Source: Solibacillus sp. FSL R7-0668 (GTDB lineage Bacteria; Bacillota; Bacilli; Bacillales_A; Planococcaceae). Taken from it: 64,000 nucleotides of DNA. Below the pieces are notes generated by a model. That model did no database searches. It had not been told where the DNA came from and worked only from the letters and a program-made list of their open reading frames with translations. The position numbers and the translations under genes were made by a program. Below are positions 39,403-54,284 of the stretch, one piece after another; within the stretch, counting starts at the first letter, position 1, and each line of letters opens with the position of its first letter. The stretch lies in NCBI RefSeq assembly GCF_038006205.1, contig NZ_JBBOUU010000001.1, positions 1,924,001 through 1,988,000 on the forward strand, in the 5' to 3' direction.

Positions 39403-39526
39403 AAAAGAGGCGCTGATTCCATCACCTGGATCAACGCCTCTTTGTTTAAAGTAAAATAAAAAACGCCTGGTGACCAAACCAGACGTTGCACTGCAAGTTA
39501 TTCTTCACGACAAGAATTTTACTGCC
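39403..39526. repeat. 124-bp triple-hairpin repeat, copy A
   Basis: Matches 54161-54284 at 108 of 124 positions with no gaps, same orientation. Three hairpins: GAGGCG...CGCCTC (39407-39440), AACGCCTGGT/ACCAGACGTT (39462-39487) and ATTCTT/AAGAAT (39499-39516). On the minus strand the second is followed by TTTTTTATTTT, so this copy is a good tandem terminator for the pel operon, whose last stop is at 39537. A G-C pair in hairpin 2 is an A-T pair in copy B, so structure is conserved. Confidence 0.85.
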
Positions 39527-39536
39527 CTCCCTAATT

Positions 39537-40217
39537 TTATTGTGCATAATCTCCAGTATAATTAACTAGCGAACAAGAATGCAGGCCTTCAATGCTATTT
39601 AAATTATTCATAAAACTCGTATTATCATCGACTAAACGAATTTCTACCGTCATTTCAATAAACCCATTGCGGATTGTTTTTGATTTTAGCTTTGTATTTA
39701 ATTTTTGTAAGGTTTTACGTACTTCTTCCCCAGCCTCATCATTATGCTGGAGAATTAGCAAATAGGTTTCGCCACGCACTTTTTTCTTTGATAACCATGC
39801 TAATGTTGCGCCAAATGCAAGCGAGCCGATAATGGCTAGAGGGTACATTTTTGCACCGATTGCGATACCTACTGCAATTGCCCAAAACATGTACACGATA
39901 TCTAAAGGATCCTTTACCGCAGTACGGAAACGAACAATACTTAACGCACCAACCATCCCTAGAGATAGGACAATATTTGTGCTAATGGTCATAATAATAA
40001 GCGTCGTAATCATCGTCATTAAAACAAATGATACATTATAGTTGTAGCTATAAACGACACCACGGAAACAACGCTTATACACCCAATAAATAAACATACC
40101 AATACCGAATGAGCACAGTAATCCGATAACAATATCCAAGTATGAAACACTAGCAAAAGAATCTAGCTTAAGTACGCTTTTTTTAATAATATTTTGGAAA
40201 TTTAATTGATCATCCAT
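39537..40217 (-). CDS. DUF4956 membrane protein
   Basis: A 226-aa protein with three or four membrane helices (YLDIVIGLLCSFGIGMFIYW, MITTLIIMTISTNIVLSLG, VGIAIGAKMYPLAIIGSLAF) and the DUF4956 signature LSLGMVGALSIVRFRTAVKD then PLDIVYMFWAIA. The C-terminal 90 residues form a soluble ferredoxin-like domain. The function is unknown; DUF4956 genes are typically paired with VTC-domain and CotH genes. Last gene of the pel operon, 49 bases after the VTC gene and 11 bases before the triple-hairpin repeat that ends the transcript. Confidence 0.85.
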   Translation of the reverse strand: MDDQLNFQNIIKKSVLKLDSFASVSYLDIVIGLLCSFGIGMFIYWVYKRCFRGVVYSYNYNVSFVLMTMITTLIIMTISTNIVLSLGMVGALSIVRFRTAVKDPLDIVYMFWAIAVGIAIGAKMYPLAIIGSLAFGATLAWLSKKKVRGETYLLILQHNDEAGEEVRKTLQKLNTKLKSKTIRNGFIEMTVEIRLVDDNTSFMNNLNSIEGLHSCSLVNYTGDYAQ

Positions 40218-40266
40218 AAATAAACTCCTTTAATTGCTGCTTTATAATAAAAGTGGTTGCTGTTAT

Positions 40267-40977
40267 TTATACTTTAAAGTATTGAATCGTTCTTTCACGA
40301 CAGAGGACATATTTTGAAATCGCCGAACGTGTTAAGCGTTCGGGCTGAAGTAATTGCCGAATGACATCTGGTAAGAAATCATCGTATTTTACTTCTAAAA
40401 TGACTTGTTCTGGATAAAGAATTTCTTGAAAGACATTATTTTTATGAAATAAGTCGATCCCATTAATGCCTGCGCGTAATTCTTTATCAAATGTAATGCG
40501 CACATTCCCTAGTTCATAAATATAGGCCTCGCGTGTGTAATCTACAATCACGCGAGGCTGAAATCGCCGGAATTCTAATGCGCGGTAAAAATCGTGAGTG
40601 AGCACTTCGGGACGCTCTTTTAAACTATGGTATTCACCGCGCAAAATGGCGTCATAGTCTTCCCGAGTTAATGGTGCACCCTCTTTATTAATATAATCAC
40701 CATATTTACTCTTTCGTTCCAACTTGATAATGGCATCATTCTCGTTATAAATACGAATGCGGTATTTTTCGCGTCCGAAAATTCCGTCATTTTTATCGTG
40801 AAGGCTATGCTCATGCATTCCATCAAAATACAAGCTTCGTATATTATAGCCATCTGGGCTCGTCGCATGCTTATCTAGTGATAAAAAACTAGCTATCTTT
40901 TTTCGTAGTGCAATCATTTCAAAATACGTAATATAATATTTTAGTTCATGTCGAAAATGTTTATTTTCAAAAGCCAT
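40267..40977 (-). CDS. VTC-domain polyphosphate polymerase-like protein
   Basis: A 236-aa stand-alone VTC domain, the tunnel-fold (TTM) module that in yeast Vtc4 makes polyphosphate from ATP. Basic tunnel residues are seen: FRHELKYYI near 8, YNIRSLYFDG near 44, REKYRIRIYNE near 69, IIKLERKSKYGDYINK near 83, NVRITFDKELRAG near 157 and VILEVKYDDFLPD near 193 (metal Glu). Cytoplasmic, no signal. Its start overlaps the CotH stop by one base. It may make polyphosphate or act as a triphosphate hydrolase; the role beside Pel genes is unknown. Confidence 0.85.
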   Translation of the reverse strand: MAFENKHFRHELKYYITYFEMIALRKKIASFLSLDKHATSPDGYNIRSLYFDGMHEHSLHDKNDGIFGREKYRIRIYNENDAIIKLERKSKYGDYINKEGAPLTREDYDAILRGEYHSLKERPEVLTHDFYRALEFRRFQPRVIVDYTREAYIYELGNVRITFDKELRAGINGIDLFHKNNVFQEILYPEQVILEVKYDDFLPDVIRQLLQPERLTRSAISKYVLCRERTIQYFKV

Positions 40978-42659
40978 TACTCCACCTCAAATCGTAGGAC
41001 ACCAAAATGATTGATGTCTGTTTCTTCATCTCTATATAGCTCAAAAGACGTTTGTTGATTGCCTTGTGCATCGGTTACGGTCACTTCCCAATAATAAACA
41101 CCCTTAGCTAATTTGGGGACGCGATATTCGTTTGTTCGCAAGCGTTTTTCTGAATAAAGCACTTGCTGCATGTACGGATCACGGGCGACTGTCACATCAT
41201 AGTAAAGATCATCCCCTTGTAAATCAAAGGAAATTTCCCAACCAAAGACATGCTGATTGCCCTCCAATGGAATCTTTTCCGACATAAAAAATGGCTTTGG
41301 TTTTTCGAGATCATCATAATAGCGCATTATCGCATGTTCAGGTGTTTTTACGATACTTTCTACGAATTGATCATAGTTTTTACCGATGATTGGTAAATAT
41401 TGATTGTCGGGATAGCGTTGTATATAAGGTTTGACGATAGGTCTATATAAATCTAATTGGTTTAGTATCGTTTCTTCATTAATATACATGGCGTTTAGCT
41501 CTTCTATTTTAGCTGTTAATTGCTCAATATTTTCTTGTTTTCTGAAATACCGATTTAATAATCGATTCGACCAGTAATTGCTTATCCCCGCTTGATAAGG
41601 TCTTATATATTCCTTACTGCGCTGTACATCCCAACCGCCATCATAATCCCAAGGTAAGATGAGCCATGTATCTAAATTTAAAGGAGAATAGAGGAAAAAG
41701 TTATTGGCATCTGTATCCATATTATCCATCAATATATTGATTGCTACCCAAGTAAGGATATTTTCTTCATCAAAATGGCGTTCGATGACTTCATCAATCG
41801 GTATGCTGTAATCATTGACATCATCTAGCATCTGGATTAACTTATCATGCTCCTCTCGCCCCTTAATTTCTAAAATAGATTCGAACGCTTCTTTCTCATA
41901 CAGTTCATCTGTATGAGGGCGAATTTGGTCTGGATAACGATTAAATTCGAAAAAGCTGACCTTATATAAATAACCATTTGGATCAAAAAGATGATTCCGT
42001 AAAAACTGTTTGTTAGGCTGCTCAATATGTGTGTACAAGCCATAATCAACATATTCCGTTGATCCAGCAGTTGTATCTTTCACATAAAGATGAATAAATT
42101 GTGTGCGTAAGCTTGAAATATTCGGAATTGGCTCTATCAAATCAAAGCTTAATTTATTCAATAATCGACTGCCATCGGAAACATGCTTATTTAAATTAAT
42201 CGTTCTTTGATCATTCCAAGTCGCCGCGCTGTCCAGCAATTTAATTTTATAAGACTTTTGCGTTTTATTGCGTGATGAATTTCCTCGGATGCTAATTTTC
42301 GCATTTGCTTTCGTTGCGTCTGCTCCAAACATGCCCGCTTGTGGCCCTGCACCATTTGGCCCACCTTCTGAAACAATAATATCTAATTTTTCTTCGCTAT
42401 AACGCTCGGTAATGCGATTTAATCCGTACCAATCGAGTTCGGAGTTGTTTGCATTGGGTAAAACCGTTATATATAAGGCTTTGATTGCATCATCTTGATC
42501 GCGTTCATAAAGTCTTTTATCGTCTATTTGAATACGATTGTCGGCTGGTATTGTTGATTGTGCTAAGCTCGGTTTTACATCTTCATTCGGTAATTTTTCG
42601 GAACAGCCCACACTAATAAATGGAACTAATATAAAGAGTGCTAGTTTTGCAAATTTCAT
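40977..42659 (-). CDS. cotH: CotH kinase-like lipoprotein
   Basis: About 560 aa. A lipoprotein signal MKFAKLALFILVPFISVGC puts it on the outer face of the membrane. The CotH domain runs from about 40 to 400, with SIRGNSSRNKTQKSYKIKL and the kinase-site pattern DNMDTDANNFFLYSPL then WLILPWDYDGGWD (candidate catalytic/metal Asp). A C-terminal beta-sandwich (GWEISFDLQGDDLYYDVTVA) resembles a fibronectin-like module. CotH of B. subtilis phosphorylates spore-coat proteins. Nearly the same protein is fused to PelG just upstream. The start at 42659 is chosen for the signal; the ribosome site is weak. Confidence 0.87.
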   Translation of the reverse strand: MKFAKLALFILVPFISVGCSEKLPNEDVKPSLAQSTIPADNRIQIDDKRLYERDQDDAIKALYITVLPNANNSELDWYGLNRITERYSEEKLDIIVSEGGPNGAGPQAGMFGADATKANAKISIRGNSSRNKTQKSYKIKLLDSAATWNDQRTINLNKHVSDGSRLLNKLSFDLIEPIPNISSLRTQFIHLYVKDTTAGSTEYVDYGLYTHIEQPNKQFLRNHLFDPNGYLYKVSFFEFNRYPDQIRPHTDELYEKEAFESILEIKGREEHDKLIQMLDDVNDYSIPIDEVIERHFDEENILTWVAINILMDNMDTDANNFFLYSPLNLDTWLILPWDYDGGWDVQRSKEYIRPYQAGISNYWSNRLLNRYFRKQENIEQLTAKIEELNAMYINEETILNQLDLYRPIVKPYIQRYPDNQYLPIIGKNYDQFVESIVKTPEHAIMRYYDDLEKPKPFFMSEKIPLEGNQHVFGWEISFDLQGDDLYYDVTVARDPYMQQVLYSEKRLRTNEYRVPKLAKGVYYWEVTVTDAQGNQQTSFELYRDEETDINHFGVLRFEVE

Positions 42660-42716
42660 GCCCAAATTTTCACCTGATTTCAGTATCAATCGAAATGTTA
42701 CTTAGATTATGTGCTG

Positions 42717-45700
42717 CTAGTTCACTTCAAATCGCAGTACACCAAAATGGTAGATACCTGTTTCTTCATCTTTGTACATTTCAAATGACGTTTGTTGATT
42801 GCCTTGTGTATCTGTTACGGTTACCTCCCAATAATAAACGCCCTTATCTAATTTCGGAACGCGATATTCATTCGTACGTAAACCCTTTTCAGAATGAATG
42901 ACTTGCTGCATATTCGGGTCACGAGCAATTGTCACATCATAGTAAAGATCATCCCCTTGTAAATCATAGGATACCTCCCACTCGAAGATATGCTCATTTT
43001 CTTTTACTGGAATTTCCTGCGACATATAGAAAGGTTTTGGTTTTTCAAGATCTTTATAATAAAGTGCTAAAGAGTTTTTAGGTGTCTCTATAATATTTTG
43101 TAGGACTTGATCATAATTTTTACTAACAATCGGCAAGTACTGGTTGTCAGGAAACCGTTGGACATACGGTTTGACGATTGGAACATATAAGTCTAATTGC
43201 TTCTTTGCCATTGCTTCGTTAATATAGGTTGCGTGCAATTCTTCCAATTTGGCTGTTAATTTATCCACATTTTCTTGCGCTCTAAAATAACGATTCAGCA
43301 AACGATTTCCCCAAAAATTACTAATCCCAGATTGATATGGTCTAACGAAATTTTGGCTACGTCCAGCATCCCAACCATCATCATAATCCCATGGTAAGAT
43401 AAGCCATGTATCTAAATTTAAGGGGGAATAAATGAAAAAGTTATTGGCATCTGTATCCATATTGTCCATTAAAATATTAATGGCTACCCATGTTAGTAAA
43501 TTTTCTTCATCGAAATGCTTTTCGATGACATCATTAATAGGGAGACTGTAGTCATTAACATCCTCTAACATTTTAATAAGCTTTTCATGTTCTTCTCGCC
43601 CTTTTATTTCTAAAATCGATTCAAAGGCTTTTTTGTCATATTTTTCATCGGTACTAGCTCGTATTTTATCTGGATAGCGATTAAATTCAAAGAAAGTAAC
43701 TTTATAGAGATAGCCATTCGGATCAAAAAGATGGTTCCGTAAAAATTGCTTATTCGGCTGTTCCATTTGTGTATACAAGCCGTAGTCGACATAGTTCGTT
43801 GATCCAGATGTTGCATCCTTTACATAAAGATGAACAAACTGCGTGCGTAAACTTGAAATGTTTGGTATCGGTTCCATTAGGTCGAAACTTAGCTTATTTA
43901 ATAGTCGGCTACCATCAGAAACATGTTTATTTAAATTAATTGTTCTCTGATCATTCCAAGTACCCGCACTATCCATCAGCTTAATTTTGTAGGACTTTTG
44001 TGGTTGTTTTCGCGCTGAATTTCCGCGGATGCTAATTTTTGCATTCGCTTTTGTTTCATTCGCCCCGAACATGCCTGATTTTGGTCCAGCACCATTTGGT
44101 TCCCCCTCAGAAACGATGATGTCTAATTTTTCTTCGCTATAACGTTCTGTAATGCGATTTAATCCATACCAATCGAGCTCAGGATTTTTTTCATTCGGTA
44201 AAACCGTTACATACAGTGTTTTAATCGAATCATCTTGATCTCGTTCATAAAGCCGTTTATCGTCTATTTGAATACGGTTTATTATGGAGGTTGTCGGCTG
44301 ACCTGAATTGGCTTCCACATCATCGACTACTACATCTTCGTTACATCCTGTTAAAATGAATGTAAGCACTACAATGGATAGGAGTGTTGTCGGTCTTTTC
44401 CTAAAGAAATTTTTGGAATTTTTTTTAGCCCCAATCGTTAATAATGGCTGTGGACAGAACGTACCGTAGTCAATATTTACTGAAATATAATTTAATCGGA
44501 AAAATGTTAAGCATAGTCCGATAAAAGACGCTATAAACATCCCCATACCGTGCCAGTTAAATTCCATTGTGATATACGATAAACTGGCATTCAAAACGAT
44601 AAAAGTTCCGCTTATTACTAATAATCCTTTTCGATCATCGAAATACATGAGTAAATGGAGTAATAAAAACATCATTATAAAAAAGAAATAAGCGAAACAT
44701 AAAATGATAAATAAATCTAATTGTTCCATGGAGAAGCCCATTCTTGGTAATAATAAAATACCAAGCGCGATGGATAATGTTGTAAACAATAATTGAATTT
44801 CTGCTAAAAAGCCTGTTTTATGGATGATTACTTTTTGTAGGCGCTGTTTTGCCTGCTGTATACTTTCATATGTGCCACCATCAAGAATATTTTTATAGTA
44901 ATTTAAAAATTTCTCATAAAAGTCGGTTTCGATTATAACAACAAAGAATATTAAGGATGGTACCACTGTTAGATAGGCATAAAATACGGCCACATCATAA
45001 AGTGGCATCAGCAAAAACTGATTTGAAATTTGGGCATGATTATCTGCAAATAACCAATAAACAATATTGTGGATATAGACCCCTGAATAGACGAATAGCC
45101 CCGTAAATAGTGCTCCTGGATAGGTTTTAACTATTCGTAAAAATTGAAAATGATCACGCTGCTTATTGCGTGGAAATACATGCTCAAAATGCAAGGATGA
45201 CCAGATAATAATACTTGCAAAGCCGATATTCATCCCAAGTAGTGCAATAACAACTGGATCCCATGATGTGAAATAAAACAAAAGAAAGCTTGTTAAAATC
45301 GAAAGGACGACGGCGATTAAAAACCCTCTAAAAATACGCTTATAATCCTTTAAAGCAGACAAGAAAATATTTTGAATCCAAATGGTAATAAGCTCAATAA
45401 AATAAATATACGCGACAATTTTATAACTGATATGTTCATTAACACCCCATAAAAACAGCGCGGCGATAATGGCAGCAATCGGTATCATGACAGTTAAACT
45501 ACCGTAATAAGCCGTAATAATTTGCTCATATTGACGTTCATAGATTTTATCTGCGATGAATCTTGTCACAAGCATCGACAAGCCTGAAGTGACAATAACT
45601 GAAAACACAAAGCTATAGGCAATGGTCGCAATAAATAATTCATTTTGAAGAAAGGTACTATCGTTTTCACGCATCATCATTTGCTGTACGAATACAAGGA

Positions 45701-45818
45701 TTAAACAAAGAATCATAGGTCCGACTGTTGTCATCGTGGAATAGCTATACGCTTTAATATTTTGAGCAAGCCCTTGTTCTCGATATAGCTTTCGTAGTTC
45801 AAAACCAATTCCAGCCAT
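42717..45818 (-). CDS. pelG: PelG exporter fused to CotH lipoprotein
   Basis: A 1033-aa fusion. Residues 1-460 are PelG, a 12-helix exporter/flippase-like protein that with PelF and PelE forms the Pel synthase complex (start MAGIGFELRKLYREQG, end YGTFCPQPLL, the usual PelG end). After a 13-residue linker comes a lipoprotein signal-like segment TTLLSIVVLTFILTGC (476-492), then a complete CotH domain (513-1033) with DNMDTDANNFFIYSPL and WLILPWDYDDGWD. The CotH half is very similar to the next gene. No ribosome site or start codon is visible at the junction, so it reads as one protein, with the extra helix placing CotH outside the membrane. Confidence 0.85.
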   Translation of the reverse strand: MAGIGFELRKLYREQGLAQNIKAYSYSTMTTVGPMILCLILVFVQQMMMRENDSTFLQNELFIATIAYSFVFSVIVTSGLSMLVTRFIADKIYERQYEQIITAYYGSLTVMIPIAAIIAALFLWGVNEHISYKIVAYIYFIELITIWIQNIFLSALKDYKRIFRGFLIAVVLSILTSFLLFYFTSWDPVVIALLGMNIGFASIIIWSSLHFEHVFPRNKQRDHFQFLRIVKTYPGALFTGLFVYSGVYIHNIVYWLFADNHAQISNQFLLMPLYDVAVFYAYLTVVPSLIFFVVIIETDFYEKFLNYYKNILDGGTYESIQQAKQRLQKVIIHKTGFLAEIQLLFTTLSIALGILLLPRMGFSMEQLDLFIILCFAYFFFIMMFLLLHLLMYFDDRKGLLVISGTFIVLNASLSYITMEFNWHGMGMFIASFIGLCLTFFRLNYISVNIDYGTFCPQPLLTIGAKKNSKNFFRKRPTTLLSIVVLTFILTGCNEDVVVDDVEANSGQPTTSIINRIQIDDKRLYERDQDDSIKTLYVTVLPNEKNPELDWYGLNRITERYSEEKLDIIVSEGEPNGAGPKSGMFGANETKANAKISIRGNSARKQPQKSYKIKLMDSAGTWNDQRTINLNKHVSDGSRLLNKLSFDLMEPIPNISSLRTQFVHLYVKDATSGSTNYVDYGLYTQMEQPNKQFLRNHLFDPNGYLYKVTFFEFNRYPDKIRASTDEKYDKKAFESILEIKGREEHEKLIKMLEDVNDYSLPINDVIEKHFDEENLLTWVAINILMDNMDTDANNFFIYSPLNLDTWLILPWDYDDGWDAGRSQNFVRPYQSGISNFWGNRLLNRYFRAQENVDKLTAKLEELHATYINEAMAKKQLDLYVPIVKPYVQRFPDNQYLPIVSKNYDQVLQNIIETPKNSLALYYKDLEKPKPFYMSQEIPVKENEHIFEWEVSYDLQGDDLYYDVTIARDPNMQQVIHSEKGLRTNEYRVPKLDKGVYYWEVTVTDTQGNQQTSFEMYKDEETGIYHFGVLRFEVN

Positions 45819-47237
45819 TTACCTCACCGTCCCTAATTCTTGATAGATTTCTTTGTAGCTCCTAATAAACGCTTGACGTGTGTAATGAGATGACACACGA
45901 TTAAACCCATTTTGCCCCATCTCCAGTCTAAGTGATTCATCTAAACAGAGCTTAACGATGTAATTCGCCATCTCTTCATAATGCATAACGGGTACGATAA
46001 ATCCGGCAGGGCCAAACGGATCATTGGGACGCCCTTCTATCAATTCTCGGCAGCTTCCCACATTCGTTGAAATAAAAGGCTTACTGCAAGCAAAGCCCTC
46101 TAATATTGCTAATGGCTGACCTTCACTAATACTTGAAAGCAGCAGAAAGTCAATATCCCCTAAATATTCCTTAATATTAACCATACCTGTAAACGTAATT
46201 TTTTGACTATTTAATAGCTGGACAAGCTGCATACATTCCTCATAATACTCCTCGTTTTCCTCGGCTGGTCCCATAATAAATAATTCGACATTCGGCAGTT
46301 GTTGCTCTACTAATGCGAATGCTTGAATCATCATTTTAATATCCTTAATCGGCACAAGACGTACAATTGCGCCAATTCGTATTGTATCGTCCTGAACGGT
46401 TCGAACAATATGACGGTAATCGTGAATATCAATGCCATTCGGAATAATACGTATTTGCTCTGGGTCACAACCGAGTTCCACTTGAATTTCCTTATTACGT
46501 TCGAATAATGTAATAATTTCGTCGGCTAATGTATAAATAGAATTAGATAAGGTGTAAAAATAATTAATCCATAAATCTTTAAAATAGCCCTTTACCCAAT
46601 GTGCTTTAATGATTTCTTCTTCACGCTCCCTTGAATAAATGCCATGTTCCGTTAAAATGAGCGGCTTATTATAAATTACTTTTGCCAGGGCACCTACCAC
46701 TCCGGCATAGCCGGTCGAAACCGCGTGATAAATGTCGGCTTTTGGAATGTCACCGCGCACCAGCATGAACAAAGGTAAAAGCATGGAGCCTACCGTCCAA
46801 AATAGCTCCGTAAAAGGCACATGCGTATACTTTGTTTTCGCCAAATCTTCTACTAAATCATAATAGTCCTTGCTTGATAAAAACTCACCAACATTTGTGA
46901 AATGATTACTTCTAATCAGCTGGAATAATGCGGCCCAGTCTACATTATTTGAACCGTTTACTAATGAAATTAAGCTGTTTCTTTGCACATCGCTTAAATG
47001 ATAACGCTTTCCAGACTTGGCTTCTTCATATAAATGATCATCTAAAAAAAATTCATGGACTTCAATTGCGTTTGCTGGCAATGAATAGTTAAATTTCCCT
47101 TGCTGTTTACGTTCAGCGGCAATCGCATAAATGATAAATTCATGCTCTGGCATCGCATGCATCAAACTATGAATCCAACTAGAAACACCCCCCGCTACGT
47201 AAGGGTAAGAACCTTCTGCGATTAAACAAATTTTCAT
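45819..47237 (-). CDS. pelF: PelF glycosyltransferase
   Basis: A cytoplasmic GT4 (GT-B fold) enzyme of 472 aa that polymerises Pel from UDP-N-acetylhexosamines. The PelF opening MKICLIAEGSYPYVAGGVSS is clear, with PLILTEHGIYSREREEEI near 215, IRIIPNGIDIHDY near 265 and the retaining-transferase E-x7-E motif SEGQPLAILEGF near 370, then TNVGSCRELIEG. The length agrees with other PelF proteins. It is nine bases after pelA and directly abuts pelG. Confidence 0.93.
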   Translation of the reverse strand: MKICLIAEGSYPYVAGGVSSWIHSLMHAMPEHEFIIYAIAAERKQQGKFNYSLPANAIEVHEFFLDDHLYEEAKSGKRYHLSDVQRNSLISLVNGSNNVDWAALFQLIRSNHFTNVGEFLSSKDYYDLVEDLAKTKYTHVPFTELFWTVGSMLLPLFMLVRGDIPKADIYHAVSTGYAGVVGALAKVIYNKPLILTEHGIYSREREEEIIKAHWVKGYFKDLWINYFYTLSNSIYTLADEIITLFERNKEIQVELGCDPEQIRIIPNGIDIHDYRHIVRTVQDDTIRIGAIVRLVPIKDIKMMIQAFALVEQQLPNVELFIMGPAEENEEYYEECMQLVQLLNSQKITFTGMVNIKEYLGDIDFLLLSSISEGQPLAILEGFACSKPFISTNVGSCRELIEGRPNDPFGPAGFIVPVMHYEEMANYIVKLCLDESLRLEMGQNGFNRVSSHYTRQAFIRSYKEIYQELGTVR

Positions 47238-47246
47238 CTTTTATTA

Positions 47247-49067
47247 TTACTCCTTTAATGTCACTTCAAATTGTGCATCTAAAGCTTTGATTAAATAAGC
47301 ACCGTCATCAATTTTAGTAACCTTACAATTCTCAAGTTTGCTAATTTTTTTATCCGTTCGTAATATAAAATGTTGTTCATTCAAATAATTATCGATTGTT
47401 CCTTTCACGACATTGTCCTCTTTTTCGATTATAGTCGTCGTTTGCAAAGTGGAAGCAATGGCCATTGCTGCTTCTGAAGCCTTCATTGCGCGAAGCCAAG
47501 GATACGTTTCTTGAATGGTAGTCATAAAGTGATCAAACTCTTCATACATTTCTGACCAGCTGCCCCCAGCTCGGTCTGAACTAATAACATCGTCTGGGTG
47601 AACAAAGTGAGAAAATACACCGATACTTGTTAATGTATTAGCGATTGCCCAGTCATCAGAAACAGTGCGGGCATACCCAGAGGAAATACGCGGCATTTCA
47701 ATAATGCCATCGTCTGCAACTTCGAATTCCTGATGGTAAGAGTTGCCGCTGATATCTTCCAAATAGAGAGAAGATATCGTAGTTAAATCAGGCCAGCTAT
47801 TGATTAATGCCTGACGCCCCTCTTTTGATAAGACATTAGAAGGCGGTACATATGTCGTTATTTTATAGGATGGAAAAGCTTGTTTTGTATAGCTTTGTAA
47901 CTCAAGAATGGATTTTTCCATATCTTCACGACTTTTCCATGCGTTATAGCCAAACGTAGAAGAAACCTTTTGGTCCATCGTTAGAGACTGATGATTATAT
48001 CCGTGAAAGCCGATTTCCCCGCCATTTTGAATCAATTCCCGACCAAAGGAAATTAAATAGACAAATTCCTTATCTTCCACATTATCGAAAGGTGGAGTCA
48101 CATTATCCAAATAGGACTCAATGATCGCGCCAGTATATCGAATATCGGCCCTAGCAGAGCTTTTTAGCATATTTGGCCACCAAATGGATTGATAGAAGGA
48201 CGCAAGATTTTTTTTGTATTCATTGTAAATCATGTCATTTTGACTTTTGGCGATGGGTGCTGGGAAGTCATCAATGAAAAAGGTTTTTGTATTAAAAATA
48301 GGATACATATAATCCGGTTCCATTAAGCTAACGGCGCCAGCTATGATGCCTCGTGACGATTTTTGAAAAAGTAATCCGCCATTAAACACCATAAATGCCC
48401 CTTCGCCATAATTTGATTTCCAAAGTAACGGATTTTTTGTTGTGCTTTCCATATAGACGGTCGCATCATTATTGAGCGCAACGCCTAAGCCTACATCATC
48501 CATTGCATCTTCAAAAAATGTCTTTCCCGTTGTCCCAATTAAAACATTCGATTTCATATGCATTCCCGTTGTTGTGACATAGGTTTCATAATCTAAAATC
48601 CCTAATTTGCGATATAAAATTTCAAAGTGGGAATTCAGTGTCAGCACATTCATTAAGAACAGATGGCCACCAGCAGCTACATAGTTTTCTATTTCCTCCA
48701 CCGTTCCGAGATCCTCTAAATATGGCGTACTGAGCAAAATAGTAGGACAGCGATCGAATGCTATCTTTTCCGTTGCTACATCAAATGTTCGCGTGCTTTT
48801 TTGCATATATTCAAGTGTCTTTTCTGCATTATTTTTTAAATCAATCGAACTTTCATCGTAAACGATACAATAAGCTGGATTTTCTGTATCAATTTTTCGA
48901 TCTTTATTCATGTTTGCGGAAACAACGAGTTCCTTCATATCTAAAATGTCTTCATTATCCACCATTTTCAATACCATTTGAGAGCGTGTAATTTGTAAAA
49001 TGATCCCAAATAAAAAAATTAGTAGGACAACAAAGATCATTTTTTGGTTATTCCATAGCCATTTCAT
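47247..49067 (-). CDS. pelA: PelA-type polysaccharide deacetylase
   Basis: A 606-aa membrane-anchored deacetylase (DUF2194 type) that removes acetyl groups from the Pel chain at the cell surface. An N-terminal helix MIFVVLLIFLFGIILQ anchors it. The first 250 residues are a Rossmann/flavodoxin-like fold. The deacetylase follows: Asp pair TKTFFIDDFPAP near 265, metal His pair in EIGFHGYNHQSLT near 355, and VFSHFVHPDDVIS near 490. It lacks the glycoside-hydrolase domain of Pseudomonas PelA, as in the Bacillus cereus pelA-DA. It overlaps pelE by 20 bases. Confidence 0.88.
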   Translation of the reverse strand: MKWLWNNQKMIFVVLLIFLFGIILQITRSQMVLKMVDNEDILDMKELVVSANMNKDRKIDTENPAYCIVYDESSIDLKNNAEKTLEYMQKSTRTFDVATEKIAFDRCPTILLSTPYLEDLGTVEEIENYVAAGGHLFLMNVLTLNSHFEILYRKLGILDYETYVTTTGMHMKSNVLIGTTGKTFFEDAMDDVGLGVALNNDATVYMESTTKNPLLWKSNYGEGAFMVFNGGLLFQKSSRGIIAGAVSLMEPDYMYPIFNTKTFFIDDFPAPIAKSQNDMIYNEYKKNLASFYQSIWWPNMLKSSARADIRYTGAIIESYLDNVTPPFDNVEDKEFVYLISFGRELIQNGGEIGFHGYNHQSLTMDQKVSSTFGYNAWKSREDMEKSILELQSYTKQAFPSYKITTYVPPSNVLSKEGRQALINSWPDLTTISSLYLEDISGNSYHQEFEVADDGIIEMPRISSGYARTVSDDWAIANTLTSIGVFSHFVHPDDVISSDRAGGSWSEMYEEFDHFMTTIQETYPWLRAMKASEAAMAIASTLQTTTIIEKEDNVVKGTIDNYLNEQHFILRTDKKISKLENCKVTKIDDGAYLIKALDAQFEVTLKE

Positions 49068-49974
49068 TTGTATGATTCACTCCAGTCGACCAATAGCGTA
49101 GCGTGACTAACGCGTCATTTGTTAGCGTAATTGGTGCCTTTTTTAAACTATTTAAGACGATATTAAATTGGGTCGCGGCTTTTAATTCACAATAGATGGC
49201 TAGCAATTGTAAATAGGGCTTCTCTGAATGTGGATAAAGTTCTTTAAATAAGAGTGCGGTTTGTTCAGCAGCCTTTAATTCGCCTAGTGTTAGTTCCATA
49301 TTTATTTTTTCATTGAATAATGCTTCTGTTGCTTGATTACTGTCAATAATTGTTTGGATCACTTGTATAAAGGTCATACGATAGTTTTTAGTGGACTGCG
49401 TATCTAGGAAGCCACTGCGCAAATATTCTTTAATAACGTCAACATATGTGAGTCCTACTTCTAGATCTTCAGGGTTTTGACTAAATTCCACCGATAATTT
49501 CTGTAGCAGTAAAGATAGCTCACGTTTCACTTCGATTACCGCTGTGACAGCATAGTGAGATGTTTCCGTATCATCATTCAACACCGCCGTTTGTAAAATG
49601 TCTAAATAGTTCATCGCATCTTGCTTTAATAAGTCCAACATAACGCGGCGGCGAGTTGTATAGTCACTAATAATGAGCGCCTCTTCAATCGAAACAACCG
49701 CTAATTCACGCTCTTTTTCAATGACTGTTTTTGAGGAGCGCAATTCGATTGGGATATCCTCTGTTTGGGCGTTCATATAGGCATTGAACTGGTCACCTTC
49801 ATTTTTAAGCATCTTTTTCGGCCAAATGCTCGGAATCAACCAACCGATAATTGGTAAAAAAACAACCAGTATACATTTAAATAACCAAGCATGAAAATTG
49901 CCTCGTGCAAAGAACCATAAAACAATGACCGAAATCGCAACATAGAGTAAGTAAATAAATAAGAGAGCGGTCAT
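49048..49974 (-). CDS. pelE: PelE scaffold protein
   Basis: A 308-aa membrane scaffold of the Pel synthase: two N-terminal helices (LLFIYLLYVAISVIVLWFF and LFKCILVVFLPIIGWLI) and a cytoplasmic TPR-like helical region of about 230 residues. The segment SIEEALIISDYTTRRRVMLD with LLKQDAMNYLDIL is a recognised PelE feature. In Pseudomonas PelE links PelD to PelF/PelG. It overlaps the PelD-fusion gene by 4 bases (ATGA) and pelA by 20. Confidence 0.85.
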   Translation of the reverse strand: MTALLFIYLLYVAISVIVLWFFARGNFHAWLFKCILVVFLPIIGWLIPSIWPKKMLKNEGDQFNAYMNAQTEDIPIELRSSKTVIEKERELAVVSIEEALIISDYTTRRRVMLDLLKQDAMNYLDILQTAVLNDDTETSHYAVTAVIEVKRELSLLLQKLSVEFSQNPEDLEVGLTYVDVIKEYLRSGFLDTQSTKNYRMTFIQVIQTIIDSNQATEALFNEKINMELTLGELKAAEQTALLFKELYPHSEKPYLQLLAIYCELKAATQFNIVLNSLKKAPITLTNDALVTLRYWSTGVNHTNEMAME

Positions 49975-52139
49975 AGCGGTACCTCATCATAAATGACATT
50001 TTCGATACCTATGTTATTAAATCGATTTATAATAAGCGGGATATCTCCTTGCTTTGTATTTGAAAGTAAAATATAAAGCGTATCTTCCAAATAGCTAATA
50101 TAATCGGTCTCCCTCAATAAATGATTTACTTTTTCAGCCACTTGCTGCGATGTATGTGCGATGGCAGGAATTTTAATTAGGGCATAAGGCATATTATATT
50201 TTTCTTTTGCCAGTATTTTGCTATTCAATATTTCATGGAATACATCTGGCTGGAGCATGATGGATTGCCCGATGTATCGACTTTCTTCAGTAAATTGAAT
50301 ATATTCAAAGGCACGGCTTAGTGATGTTTCGATTAAACCTGCAATTACTTTGAATAAGTTTTCATGATAGTTAGAAAAGCTTGTAAAGGGTAAGCCGTCA
50401 ATCGTAATAATGGCCTTAATCGTATTATTATAGTAAATGGGTGCAGCCATTACGGGTACATTGGCAAGTAATTTTCGATTAGCAAAAAGAGTATTTGTGC
50501 TAATGATTTGCTGTATATACGGTGTATCCTCTACTTTTAATGAGCTCGAATATGTTTTTTCATTTTGTAAATACGAACTTGCTACTAGTCGAAGATATGT
50601 TTCATCTTTATTTAATAAATAAATGGAGACATTTTCACAACGCATAATCTTTTGTACAACCTCAATCGTACTCGTAAAAATTTTCTCCGGCTCTACCTCG
50701 TTTAACTCTTTGATGATAGAATAAATTTTCCCGAAGCTATCCTCGTTATTTAATACACGTAATTGTAATTCATCCTTTACATCGCGCAGTTCCTCATGAA
50801 TTGTTTCTAAAAAGTCATAGCGCATACGGAAATTTTCTAGCGCTTCTTTTTGTTCCGTAATTTTAATATTCTTTCGCTGCACAGAATAACCAACGACTAA
50901 GCCAATGAATAAGAAAATGGCGATTTGAAAAAAGAATGTTGTATCATACATAAGTGAAACGATTTCTCGTCCTTGACGGAAATAATCCAACAGTAGCAAA
51001 CTAATGGATAAGCAAACCGCAAAGAATGCTTGCTTATTCCCGTAAATCGCACCGACCGTAATAATATAGAAAATACCAACTTCAAAAACGGATAAAACCG
51101 GCATATTTATGTTTAGTACGAGTACACTTAAAATGAAGAATAATACCGCGTTTTCTAGGTATGATTTAATATGCTTATACCAATTTGGAATGTTCTTCTT
51201 TTCCTTAACAACCGCCTGTACAGTTGTTGTCCGTGTTGTACCCCATTCATATGTTTTTTGCAGCCCTTCTTCGAGCGAATACATGGGCACCCAATCTAAA
51301 TTTTGAATGATACGCCCGTTATCTAAAACAGAGCGTTGTATATCCCCTTCACGATGAGCCACTTGAATCGTTTGAATAGCTCCATGTAACGATTCATAAT
51401 GGCGAATAAGATCATTGACACTGGATTCGGTATTGGTGGACAAATTATAAGTGCCTGTGAGCGAACTTTGAGAAGCGCGATAGATTGCAAATGCAACATC
51501 TCCTACATAAATAAAATCCCGTGTTTGATGACCATCCCCGTGAATTTGAAGCACATTATTCGTTAAAAGGCGTTCCAAAAATATGGAAACGACACCGCCC
51601 TCTCCTTCATGCGTTTGGCGCGGGCCATAAACATTTGAAAAGCGGAAACAAATGGATGCTAACCCTTGACTTGCTGCCCAATTGCTGCAATATTTTTCTC
51701 CTACAAGCTTACTTAATCCATAGGGTGAAATCGGATTTGTAGGCATGTCCTCCGTTATTGGTAGCAAAGCCTGCTCCCCATACACAGCTGCTGATGAAGC
51801 AAAGATAAATTTCTTCACCTTAAATTCCGTCGCAAATTTCAGCATTTGAACGAGACCAACGATATTGCTCTGTGCATCATAGCTAGGATTTTGCATCGAT
51901 GTCGCCACACTTACTTGCGCTGCTAAATGGACAACGATATCAAAGTTATAAGCAGCAAAGATATCCCGACATTTCGGGTCATCTATCGAAAGCTGATAAA
52001 ATTTATGTTTAAATGTAATATTTTCAACTTTCCCGGTTACTAAATTATCGATAATATGCACTTCATAGCCTTCTTTAAAAAATCGATCTGCTACATGAGA
52101 ACCGATAAAACCATAGCCACCTGTTATTAATACTCTCAT
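49971..52139 (-). CDS. pelD: UDP-sugar epimerase fused to PelD c-di-GMP receptor
   Basis: A 722-aa fusion. Residues 1-305 are an extended SDR of the GalE/PelX type: NAD motif GGYGFIGSHVA at 7-17 and catalytic YGLSK near 147. It probably converts UDP-GlcNAc to UDP-GalNAc, the Pel precursor. Residues 325-425 hold four membrane helices (ending FLFIGLVVGYSVQR) and a coiled coil. A GAF domain (about 470-610) and a degenerate GGDEF-like domain follow, as in PelD. An inhibitory-site RxxD motif, LLRETDYI (Arg676, Asp679), is the expected c-di-GMP contact. In B. cereus and Pseudomonas c-di-GMP binding to PelD switches on Pel synthesis. I do not know of a described epimerase-PelD fusion. Confidence 0.88.
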   Translation of the reverse strand: MRVLITGGYGFIGSHVADRFFKEGYEVHIIDNLVTGKVENITFKHKFYQLSIDDPKCRDIFAAYNFDIVVHLAAQVSVATSMQNPSYDAQSNIVGLVQMLKFATEFKVKKFIFASSAAVYGEQALLPITEDMPTNPISPYGLSKLVGEKYCSNWAASQGLASICFRFSNVYGPRQTHEGEGGVVSIFLERLLTNNVLQIHGDGHQTRDFIYVGDVAFAIYRASQSSLTGTYNLSTNTESSVNDLIRHYESLHGAIQTIQVAHREGDIQRSVLDNGRIIQNLDWVPMYSLEEGLQKTYEWGTTRTTTVQAVVKEKKNIPNWYKHIKSYLENAVLFFILSVLVLNINMPVLSVFEVGIFYIITVGAIYGNKQAFFAVCLSISLLLLDYFRQGREIVSLMYDTTFFFQIAIFLFIGLVVGYSVQRKNIKITEQKEALENFRMRYDFLETIHEELRDVKDELQLRVLNNEDSFGKIYSIIKELNEVEPEKIFTSTIEVVQKIMRCENVSIYLLNKDETYLRLVASSYLQNEKTYSSSLKVEDTPYIQQIISTNTLFANRKLLANVPVMAAPIYYNNTIKAIITIDGLPFTSFSNYHENLFKVIAGLIETSLSRAFEYIQFTEESRYIGQSIMLQPDVFHEILNSKILAKEKYNMPYALIKIPAIAHTSQQVAEKVNHLLRETDYISYLEDTLYILLSNTKQGDIPLIINRFNNIGIENVIYDEVPL

Positions 52140-52160
52140 AAAACCTCTCTCTTTCTTTTT

Positions 52161-53405
52161 TTATTTACATAAAATGGTTGAAAACACGGATTCATTTTTG
52201 AAGCGATTATCCGTCGTTACTTTTTTAGAGATATTCATATGTTCTTTAGAGCTACATCTTAAATACGTATTGCTGGAAAATTCGATATTGCGTGTATGAT
52301 TCTGAATGGTAACTTCTCTATAGCCTTTGTTGGAACGATCATTAAAGGTAAATTTATTAGCAATAATCAAGATATTCTCGGCTCCGCCATTATCAATACT
52401 TGCTCCACCTAAAATAAGACCCGCCTTTGTGTTTTTAGAAACAAAATTATTTCTTACGACAATATTTTTGGCGGAAAAACCTTCTTCTTCACTTGAGACT
52501 GAAATTCCGAAGTCATTATTGATAACATGGTTTTTTTCCACGACGATGTTTTGTGCGCCATCAATATAAATACCTGCCGATGATCCCGAGCCTTCATAAG
52601 CCGGATTGTTTGCAGAAGACATATAGGAAACTAAATTATTTGAAATCACGCCATTGCGCGCATAATCTATACATCCATCTCGATCACAAGCACCGTACCG
52701 GCCAGCAGCATCAATGCCGATATTATTGTTGTTGGTCAATATATTTTTATCAATGACGAAATTTTCTATATTGCCACTCAACGTTAAGGATTCACTACGA
52801 CCGAGCGTTAAATCAGATAGTTTGTTGTTTGTTATTCGAATATCTTGAATGGGCTGTGGGTCATTACCGTATACAATAATGCCATGTGCATTCCCTTTTT
52901 TTGCATAATTCGCAATGTGATGAATGTTATTTTCTGTGATGTCAATATTTTCATTGTGTCCTCGTACTAAAATACCTGCTGGAAAGGATTCTTGAGAGTC
53001 GGCTTTCACATTTCGTATTTCAAAGCCTTCTATTCGAATCCCTTTCGAGTCTTTAATTTCAAACCCGGCTCTTTGTTTAGGCGTGATTTCTAAGCCTTCA
53101 GCATCGATAATCGGTGTTTCGTTCTGAAAATTTTTAATCGTTATCCATTGACCGTCTGCTGCCTCTTTATTCGAGATAACAACCAGTTCTTTGTAAGTAC
53201 CTTCACGAACAAATATGACATCACCTGGTTCAGCTCGATTGACCGCATATTGGATGGATTGCCAAGGTGAACTATATGTACCTTCTGATTCGTCACTTCC
53301 ATTGGGTGCAACATAATACGATGCTTGTACGGTTTCTATCGTTATCAAAAAAATAGCAATCGTAAGCATGTAACAAAAAAAGAAAACCGTTTTCCTATTT
53401 AACAT
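52161..53405 (-). CDS. Secreted right-handed beta-helix protein
   Basis: A 414-aa exported protein with signal segment FFFCYMLTIAIFLITIETVQ and cleavage after ASA-like VQAS. The mature start YYVAPNGSDESEGTYSSPWQ then IQYAVNRAEPGDVIFVREG is the DUF1565/PL9-like entry to a parallel beta-helix. Many NN-I-x-N and G-I-x-V turns follow. Three Cys residues could bond (GACDRDGC). Such proteins are polysaccharide lyases, hydrolases or epimerases. It is first in the pel operon, so it may trim or modify Pel, compensating for the hydrolase domain missing from PelA. Catalytic residues cannot be assigned. Confidence 0.78.
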   Translation of the reverse strand: MLNRKTVFFFCYMLTIAIFLITIETVQASYYVAPNGSDESEGTYSSPWQSIQYAVNRAEPGDVIFVREGTYKELVVISNKEAADGQWITIKNFQNETPIIDAEGLEITPKQRAGFEIKDSKGIRIEGFEIRNVKADSQESFPAGILVRGHNENIDITENNIHHIANYAKKGNAHGIIVYGNDPQPIQDIRITNNKLSDLTLGRSESLTLSGNIENFVIDKNILTNNNNIGIDAAGRYGACDRDGCIDYARNGVISNNLVSYMSSANNPAYEGSGSSAGIYIDGAQNIVVEKNHVINNDFGISVSSEEEGFSAKNIVVRNNFVSKNTKAGLILGGASIDNGGAENILIIANKFTFNDRSNKGYREVTIQNHTRNIEFSSNTYLRCSSKEHMNISKKVTTDNRFKNESVFSTILCK

Positions 53406-54160
53406 TTAATTGAAATGCCCCCTTCTTACTAGCCTATTTAATGCAAAAAATTACCCATTAGTATATTTAGAAAATCAAAAATAACGATTTATGTTGAAAT
53501 CTATCTGCCATAAAACTTAACCTTCTCCTCTCAAACTTTTTTCTAAGTAAGTTGACCCATTTCAAATTCTCAAGCTGAGCAAAAACATGTTGAACCGTGC
53601 GGAAAAATGCCCGTTTCGATTTCTTTTTTTGCTATTTGAAATAGTTTTAATCATTCTAGTTACGTTTGAGTATTAATTACAAAGGTTAAAATTAGGTTAA
53701 AAAATTGAATTAATTTGAAAAAAATAAATATTTGGGTAATCACAAATATCTTTATAATTTCGCAAATAAAACCCAAAAGTCGCAAATATATAACCACACA
53801 TCAAGTCAATACAGAAGATGATTACGAAAATTCAACTCCATGTTTCAATGGTGTTTCATAAAATCGAGTATTTACTAGTACATTACGAGTTTTCCTCTAA
53901 ATCGATTAAAATCCTCTCTCGAATGTTTATATTCTGTTTATTAGCTTATATAATCCAATTGAACAAAATCTGAACACATCAAAAAATAGTAAGGTAATTG
54001 GAGGATTTAGTTGATAAAATTGTATTAAGAGCATTTTTAGGAAAAGTTATTGTAGGGGAGAGTGCCATTTGTACTTGCTATGACTGCATTTGGCTTCCTC
54101 AAATAGAAAAAAAGAAAAAATTAAAAAATATAGAATCGTTTTGAAAAAAGAACAGCGTGA
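53406..54160. other. pel operon control region
   Basis: An AT-rich, gene-free stretch of about 750 bases. The pel operon must start here on the minus strand; a TATACT box near 53462 is a weak candidate -10. Further up are an inverted repeat ATATTTG-N8-CAAATAT (53728-53749) and a direct repeat TCGCAAATA at 53760-53768 and 53780-53788, spaced 20 bases, possible regulator sites. I looked for a c-di-GMP riboswitch and saw none. Confidence 0.5.
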
Positions 54161-54284
54161 AAAAGAGGCGTTGATTCCATAATCTGAATCAACGCCTCAT
54201 TGTTTTAAGCCAAATAAAAAACACCTGGTGACCAAACCAGATGTTGCACTGCATATGATTCTTCACAACAAGAATCTTATTGCC
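54161..54284. repeat. 124-bp triple-hairpin repeat, copy B
   Basis: Partner of 39403-39526, same orientation, 87% identical without gaps. Hairpin 1 is a perfect 13-bp stem (GAGGCGTTGATTC/GAATCAACGCCTC), hairpin 2 is AACACCTGGT/ACCAGATGTT, and hairpin 3 GATTCTT/AAGAATC. On the minus strand hairpin 2 is followed by TTTTTTATTT. Unlike copy A it is not at the end of a minus-strand gene; it lies between the pel promoter region and the HAD gene. Confidence 0.85.

Follow-up and report, generated by a model that had tools for sequence, protein, structure and literature searches.

Why should an operon for a Pel-type exopolysaccharide also carry genes for CotH proteins, a VTC-type polyphosphate polymerase, and a DUF4956 membrane protein? 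This question is raised by a locus in Solibacillus sp. FSL R7-0668 that occupies the minus strand at positions 39537-53405 of a 64,000-nucleotide stretch of contig NZ_JBBOUU010000001.1; this whole stretch is hereafter called the window. A first-pass annotation had described the locus as a tightly packed nine-gene operon, and a check of the open reading frames (ORFs) bears this out. In the order beta-helix, SDR-PelD, PelE, PelA deacetylase, PelF, PelG-CotH, CotH, VTC, and DUF4956, adjacent genes overlap by at most 20 nt or are separated by gaps of at most 49 nt, and eight of the nine ORFs are named by domain scans (Pfam/NCBIfam), with PelE assigned by synteny. The best overall explanation that we can offer, which we hold only tentatively, is that a Pel-type operon gated by cyclic di-GMP (c-di-GMP) has recruited a free-standing VTC-DUF4956-CotH module.

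Part of this arrangement is already in print. In 2020, Whitfield et al. (PMC7112168, cited here from the accessible portion of its text) reported genes for CotH, a poly-phosphate polymerase, DUF4956, and DUF4832 contiguous with pelDEADAFG in streptococci and clostridia, as well as a bifidobacterial variant of the cluster and an epimerase domain on PelD. The window shares with these clusters the pelDEADAFG core, the same three contiguous added genes, and the SDR domain on PelD. It differs in its Bacillales host, the fusion of PelG to CotH, the second CotH gene, the beta-helix gene in first position, and the lack of a DUF4832 match among the nine operon genes. The association of a Pel operon with CotH, polyphosphate polymerase, and DUF4956 genes, which was the headline of the first-pass annotation, is therefore not new. 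That annotation needs correcting in that both the cassette and the SDR-PelD architecture had been published, and in that the second CotH is a duplicate of the fused one. What is new here is the strict pairing of VTC with DUF4956, the occurrence of the trio mostly outside pel loci, and a PelG-CotH fusion that retains an internal lipoprotein-type signal.

Distribution of the VTC, DUF4956, and CotH genes

Comparisons were made with a set of 20 close VTC loci (the window and 19 relative loci), with a named set comprising the best 80 of at least 575 VTC loci, and with 299 Bacillota genomes drawn evenly (the even sample), in which 54 VTC matches were found in 46 genomes. A control set held 14 genomes, and 61 relatives were searched for PelG and VTC. 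Within the named set, L042 and L043 are second entries for L034 and L026. Locus counts were made on six-frame stretches, since the gene caller skipped genes in some loci. Several regions of the even sample end at contig ends.

VTC and DUF4956 are found in the identical 46 of the 299 Bacillota genomes (Fisher p 2.8e-55; like all such values below, this one treats genomes as independent and ignores relatedness, which tells against our reading). They also occur in the same 3 of the 14 controls, namely Bacteroides ihuae, Corynebacterium glutamicum, and the archaeon Methanosarcina acetivorans. All 146 neighboring VTC-DUF4956 pairs in the fetched loci lie on the same strand, 134 of them in the order VTC-DUF4956, with one pair counted twice because L114 and L142 are one locus. 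Every VTC gene of the close set has an adjacent DUF4956 gene (20/20), and DUF4956 is present in 79 of the 80 named loci, the exception (L104) having 541 bases of contig beyond the VTC midpoint. DUF4956 is likewise near VTC at 52 of the 54 even-sample loci, 51 by script and one (L157, ordered DUF4956-CotH-VTC) by hand; the other two are at a contig start (L166) or carry a partial VTC gene (L171). No report of this strict pairing was found in the open-licence PMC literature, where three papers name DUF4956 and one mentions CotH along with a polyphosphate polymerase.

In yeast, the VTC polymerase is coupled to a membrane part, and the RxR and ExK motifs have a role in VTC catalysis. The VTC family profile matches the structure of yeast Vtc4 (PDB 3g3q, 8i6v) at 8.9e-14 with both motifs in register, and R73, R75, E87, K89, E195, and K197 do not vary across the 14 proteins compared, as expected of a VTC domain of the polyphosphate-polymerase type. 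Unlike in the yeast complex, the window protein consists of the VTC domain alone and its membrane partner would be the separate DUF4956 chain. In the model of DUF4956 (predicted local distance difference test, pLDDT, 85.5), a first helix at the N-terminus is followed by five more, which score as membrane spans in a hydropathy scan, and by an ACT-type domain at the C-terminus. Only two structure matches reach E <=0.001, both to one ACT domain, and the C-termini of MgtC proteins follow at 0.002 and 0.008; the DUF4956 profile gave a single match against PDB, at E 0.13. DUF4956 is not an MgtC/SapB equivalog, scoring 27.7 bits versus 214 for NF007431. Four residues (G90, R96, R98, and G117) are shared by all 61 proteins compared, and the positive-inside rule suggests a cytosolic location for R96, R98, and the ACT domain. 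Taken together, it is well supported by these comparisons that VTC and DUF4956 form one functional unit, a probable polyphosphate-polymerase domain with its membrane partner.

The relation of this pair to pel is much looser. Nine of the 20 close loci are pel-linked, eight of them with the PelG-CotH fusion. Among the named loci, CotH was detected in 69 of 80 and pelG in 31, all 31 having CotH; 24 of these 31 are from Bacillales, and 12 carry the fusion. The remaining 49 named loci lack pelG, although 9 of them show <5 kb upstream and could conceal a pel locus, and 38 of the 49 have CotH. These CotH counts are lower bounds, since the strict profile used skipped divergent CotH proteins. Of the other 11 non-pel loci, four (L091, L104, L116, L121) have a divergent CotH by Pfam and four (L090, L097, L098, L115) by a broader profile, and no CotH was seen at L070, L085, or L113. 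The gene order of the pel loci, CotH-VTC-DUF4956, also occurs without pelG at four loci with ~10 kb of upstream sequence visible (L060, L061, L063, L072) and at five relatives (L025, L027, L029, L036, L037).

In the even sample, only 2 of the 54 VTC loci are pel-linked. PelG was found in 12 of the 299 genomes at E 0.001 (11 above cut-off), and VTC is present in 3 of these 12, giving no association (Fisher p 0.28); conversely, only 3 of the 46 VTC genomes (G000, G164, G195) have PelG. Eight even-sample pel loci have PelD, PelA, PelF, and PelG visible (the window, L143, L174-L179), and two of them carry the cassette; L175 ends 484 bases past PelG, and the genome of L176 has VTC on a different contig. 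Among the 61 relatives, PelG is above cut-off in 11, of which 9 have VTC (not G046 and G051). Within the genus of the window, PelG is present in 6 of 16 genomes and VTC in 10 of 16.

The first-pass annotation had proposed that CotH, VTC, and DUF4956 are functional parts of one Pel-dedicated machine. The cassette does stand beside pel in many genomes, and not in this strain alone, but it is not specific to Pel: most trios occur without pel, VTC is not enriched with PelG, and a role as a Pel-specific accessory can be ruled out. Given that 2 of 54 VTC loci are pel-linked, the trio is best viewed as a free-standing module, which appears to have been recruited into some pel loci. In addition, a 2025 study of Streptococcus intermedius (PMC12345266) states, in its accessible text, that the trio is not found outside pel; this statement is contradicted by the even-sample loci.

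CotH is the usual neighbor of the pair. Of the 54 even-sample VTC loci, 32 have a same-strand CotH gene within 5.5 kb and 14 have a gene for the secreted protein Cthe_2159 within 6 kb, with one locus having both and nine having neither. At the genome level, CotH is present in 41 of 299 genomes, 37 of them with VTC (Fisher 3.4e-34), and Cthe_2159 in 33, 27 of them with VTC. The 46 VTC genomes divide into 19 with CotH alone, 18 with CotH and Cthe_2159, and 9 with Cthe_2159 alone, and each of the three VTC control genomes has one or the other. Ten of the 299 genomes have CotH or Cthe_2159 without VTC, and a paper on Zetaproteobacteria stalks reports CotH and neither VTC nor DUF4956. It is well supported that CotH is the usual partner of VTC-DUF4956, predicted from its signals to be extracellular.

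Several genes adjoin stand-alone trios. These include two-component genes (an OmpR-type regulator and histidine kinase at L025 and L030, a kinase at L120) and a PrsA-like peptidyl-prolyl isomerase, or foldase (L025, L038, L101). A purple-acid-phosphatase-like metallophosphoesterase gene is divergent from VTC-DUF4956-CotH at L033 (5663-6904) and L074 (8579-9817), and many other Paenibacillus loci have a divergent ORF of similar length in this place. At L063 (11472-19840), CotH-VTC-DUF4956 is joined to a PelF-like glycosyltransferase family 4 (GT4) protein (DUF3492), an HD_5 protein, and proteins of 415, 537, and 600 amino acids (aa) without Pfam match, two of which have many hydrophobic spans; neither PelG nor PelD was found in this locus. 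L060 (11534-15544) is alike in layout, only its epimerase having been scanned. At L061 (11423-12217), from a Paenibacillus metagenome-assembled genome, a GH114-family hydrolase gene lies directly 3' of CotH-VTC-DUF4956, amid HD_5 genes and without pelG. Finally, a protein with leucine-rich repeats and a lamin-tail domain is encoded 3' of DUF4956-VTC at L159 (7791-8966) and is possibly a third type of partner.

A comparable grouping can be recognized in the NELoc-2 locus of Clostridium perfringens (PMC2879425, PMC11677781). As described in the accessible parts of these papers, it shares VTC genes, adjoining genes for 222-226 aa membrane proteins, CotH, and a glycosyltransferase, and, according to the 2024 paper, also has a polysaccharide deacetylase. 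It differs in that the 2010 table lists a GT2 (chitin-synthase-like) enzyme rather than PelF/PelG, and the membrane proteins are compared here by description.

The PelG-CotH fusion and its internal signal

The fusion of PelG to CotH was found at 18 distinct loci, in Solibacillus, Rummeliibacillus, Psychrobacillus, Paenibacillus, Brevibacillus, and further kin. In a quick PelG tree, the fused proteins form one clade (Shimodaira-Hasegawa-like approximate likelihood ratio test, SH-aLRT, 99), and the fusion arose once. An artefactual fusion through a missed stop codon is ruled out, given that the same frame is open at all 18 loci. The CotH family matches structure 5jd9 (4.3e-10) with its motifs aligned to the NFDG.. 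and PWDYD motifs of Bacillus cereus CotH. These motifs are invariant in 18 of 18 fusions, and fold and motifs together indicate that the fused domain is a CotH protein. The predicted structure of the whole chain has 12 long PelG helices, the CotH domain, and a beta-rich C-terminus, and Foldseek matched it to CotH (5jd9, 5.3e-10) and to flippases of the MATE/MurJ type.

Among residues 453-520, Cys492 is the sole invariant column (18 of 18 fusions) and is always preceded by A or G, in a linker that is otherwise poorly conserved. The strict lipobox pattern [LVI][ASTVI][GAS]C, which in a bacterial lipoprotein signal goes with a basic n-region and a hydrophobic h-region, is present in 15 of the 18 fusions, including that of the window (LTGC), but not in L044, L046, and L052; a looser pattern of the PROSITE type matches all 18. 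The fusions have 2 to 9 K/R within the 15 residues preceding the hydrophobic stretch, and the fused protein of the window carries the features expected of a bacterial lipoprotein signal at an internal position. A crude lipobox finder picks out every fused entry (20, of which 18 are distinct), along with 11 of 28 separate CotH proteins from pel loci and 24 of 83 non-pel CotH proteins; the unmarked ones mostly have a hydrophobic stretch only.

Because the invariant Cys492 lies within an internal lipoprotein-type signal, we predict that PelG-CotH is made as one polyprotein, which the lipoprotein machinery would lipidate and cleave at Cys492, so that CotH stays beside the exporter. This prediction is moderately supported. 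Translation of CotH from a conserved internal start is ruled out, as the tested stretch lacks any candidate start codon at 6 of 20 loci, including the window, and a start accompanied by a Shine-Dalgarno-like match of >=5 is present at 1 of 20. To our knowledge, a lipoprotein signal inside a membrane exporter would be an unusual way of placing an enzyme at the secretion exit, and no report of an internal lipobox in PelG-CotH was found in the open-licence PMC literature.

The separate CotH of the window nests within the fused CotH clade (three fused and two separate rows, support 100 in a quick tree), which marks it as a later duplicate of the fused domain. Its N-terminal signal corresponds to the internal segment of the fusion. 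The lipobox of such separate copies reads IVGC in L041 and SVGC in the window, the latter being noncanonical at position -3.

The Pel core and the layout of the operon

The window has both PelF and PelG, as in Gram-positive pelDEADAFG clusters, which make a GalNAc-rich polymer, with PelE and the PelA deacetylase in the syntenic slots; PelE has no Pfam match. The PelD ORF (722 aa) combines an SDR epimerase domain (6.3e-60) with a GAF domain (1.1e-7) and a degenerate GGDEF domain that has the residues of a c-di-GMP-binding one. Its residues R676, D679, and R706 are retained in 42 of 43 rows (exception L054) and correspond, by motif and spacing rather than by direct alignment, to R363, D366, and R395 of B. 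cereus PelD, which were mutated by Whitfield et al. (PMC7112168). Given the retention of these residues and 19 GGDEF matches in the host genome, c-di-GMP control of the operon is likely. The PelD of the window preserves the SDR motifs GxxGxxG and YxxxK, as do most Bacillales rows; in those clostridial rows that have the domain, the motifs are altered. The window thus differs from the clusters of PMC7112168, in which, by the accessible text, SDR residues are altered outside Brevibacillus and streptococci have no GGDEF domain. The first-pass annotation had taken the PelD fusion as an argument that the added genes are functional parts. This argument falls away, because SDR-PelD is also present in pel loci L177-L179, whose genomes have no VTC.

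Table 1. Features of the pel operon region, in order of transcription (positions in the window).
Feature	Position	Strand	Basis
Right-handed beta-helix protein, hydrophobic N-terminus, 414 aa, first gene	52161..53405	-	Pfam Beta_helix 5e-14
pelD: N-terminal GalE-like SDR epimerase (1-300), hydrophobic segment, GAF (483-608), degenerate GGDEF with I-site R676xxD679 and R706	49971..52139	-	Domain scan and alignment
pelE	49048..49974	-	Position and conservation in pel loci
pelA deacetylase-type gene (DUF2194 / DUF2334)	47247..49067	-	DUF2194 3.7e-152
pelF, GT4 glycosyltransferase	45819..47237	-	NF038011 equivalog 391 bits (cut-off 100), DUF3492 6.5e-83
pelG-cotH fusion, 1033 aa: PelG 1-454, Cys492 in internal lipoprotein-type signal, CotH 595-911, beta-rich C-terminal domain	42717..45818	-	PelG 9.4e-123, CotH 7e-60
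Second cotH, 570 aa, SVGC lipobox-like sequence near N-terminus	40977..42689	-	Pfam CotH 4.6e-59
VTC-domain protein, polyphosphate-polymerase type, 236 aa, catalytic domain only	40267..40977	-	Pfam 9.2e-37
DUF4956 membrane protein, C-terminal ACT-type domain	39537..40217	-	Pfam 5.9e-12
Terminator-like hairpin 3' of DUF4956	39462..39487	-	Fold

The beta-helix gene is found in 7 of the 20 close VTC loci and is therefore regarded as a lineage accessory; a PDB search with its product returned 73 residues of a xylosidase at 2.1e-8 and three further matches at 0.26. Control by a known riboswitch is ruled out by the absence of Rfam matches at the gathering threshold in the window, with one candidate at 54026-54216 far below the gathering score. 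A 124-bp direct repeat (87% identity; 39403-39526 and 54161-54284) flanks the entire operon. Each copy has two terminator-like hairpins, the stretches around them giving fold z scores of -5.7 and -6.1, and the exact 16-base core of the repeat occurs nowhere else in the genome. No copy was found in the relative loci searched, and contig C5, 15 kb long, carries two weaker copies (75-76%) at a distance of ~12.5 kb from each other. It may mark a past duplication or insertion.

Function of the combined operon

Published deletions support the claim that two of the added genes, those for CotH and the MgtC/ACT-type protein, matter to Pel. The pel locus of S. intermedius resembles that of the window in having CotH (SIR_1594), a polyphosphate-polymerase domain (SIR_1593), and an MgtC/ACT membrane protein (SIR_1592) beside pel (SIR_1591-1594), and differs in its Class IV PelD without GGDEF and in its separate CotH gene (PMC12345266). 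We equate SIR_1592, for which four membrane spans are given, with DUF4956, a term that the accessible text of that paper does not use. When genes of this locus were deleted singly, the CotH mutant had less Pel and the MgtC/ACT mutant more, and both lost more than half of their aggregation in 10% artificial sputum medium (PMC12345266).

On the reading that we tentatively favor, the Pel parts have a well-supported role: PelD, as c-di-GMP receptor with its own GalE-like epimerase, together with PelE, PelF, and PelG would make and export the polymer, which the PelA-type deacetylase would trim. VTC would make polyphosphate, and DUF4956 would either pass it outward or control its making. After cleavage and lipidation of the PelG-CotH chain at Cys492, CotH would remain as a lipoprotein beside the exporter and might take part in phosphate chemistry outside the cell, where the polymer emerges. 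The matrix may then be formed jointly by Pel and either a polyanion or a surface component that carries phosphate.

Several observations weigh against this scheme. No structure match of DUF4956 points to a channel, those at E <=0.001 being to ACT only. The host genome also encodes a canonical polyphosphate kinase, and VTC is therefore not the sole possible source of polyphosphate. The PelG-CotH model is middling (pLDDT 70.2, with linker 451-530 <50), and the SVGC of the separate CotH falls outside the pattern of the lipobox finder. No CotH kinase is known to us to act on sugars. In S. intermedius, aggregation and Pel persisted in the VTC mutant, and the accessible text names an altered phenotype only for the CotH and MgtC/ACT mutants (PMC12345266).

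One alternative, close to the first-pass annotation, is that CotH directly phosphorylates Pel or a Pel-associated surface protein, using ATP or VTC-derived polyphosphate, within a machine dedicated to Pel. The position of the gene in the operon, its fusion to PelG, the conserved B. cereus CotH motifs, and the lowered Pel of the S. intermedius CotH mutant (PMC12345266) are all consistent with such a putative modification. The rarity of pel among even-sample VTC loci and the many non-pel named loci that combine CotH with VTC nevertheless make a Pel-dedicated enzyme doubtful. Alternatively, the cassette might be regulatory, with DUF4956 (ACT-type) and VTC adjusting phosphate or ATP status and CotH tuning Pel synthesis by protein phosphorylation, a view close to suggestions in the accessible texts of the 2020 and 2025 papers (PMC7112168, PMC12345266). 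It would account for the ACT domain and weak MgtC similarity of DUF4956, for the opposite effects of MgtC/ACT and CotH deletion on Pel (PMC12345266), and for the histidine kinase, response regulator, or foldase genes beside some stand-alone trios. We consider it unlikely, however, because CotH, by its signal, should sit outside the membrane and apart from the cytosolic Pel parts, and because PelD here already carries c-di-GMP residues.

It is also conceivable that PelG-CotH stays uncut, with the hydrophobic segment serving only as one more transmembrane stretch to keep CotH on the outer side and the cysteine being a remnant of the ancestral lipoprotein. Three of the 18 fusion lipoboxes are not canonical, and a single origin of the fusion implies that the cysteine was inherited. 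Against this stands the invariance of Cys492, always after A or G, amid a poorly conserved linker, and we regard an uncut chain as not very probable. A bolder extension of the recruited-module reading is that VTC-DUF4956, as a widespread prokaryotic counterpart of the yeast VTC complex, both makes and exports polyphosphate and feeds it to a swappable secreted partner: CotH, using polyphosphate as donor, or Cthe_2159. In Bacillales pel loci, the cut-off CotH would then build polyphosphate or phosphate into the emerging Pel. This proposal is a long shot, but if true, exported polyphosphate as the CotH donor would remove the need for extracellular ATP.

These findings correct the published statement, as it stands in the accessible text of PMC12345266, that restricts the trio to pel. 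Because VTC and DUF4956 always occur together in the 299-genome sample, and every genome that has them also encodes CotH or Cthe_2159, these loosely annotated families become a single system open to testing, and pel loci make up a minority of its users.

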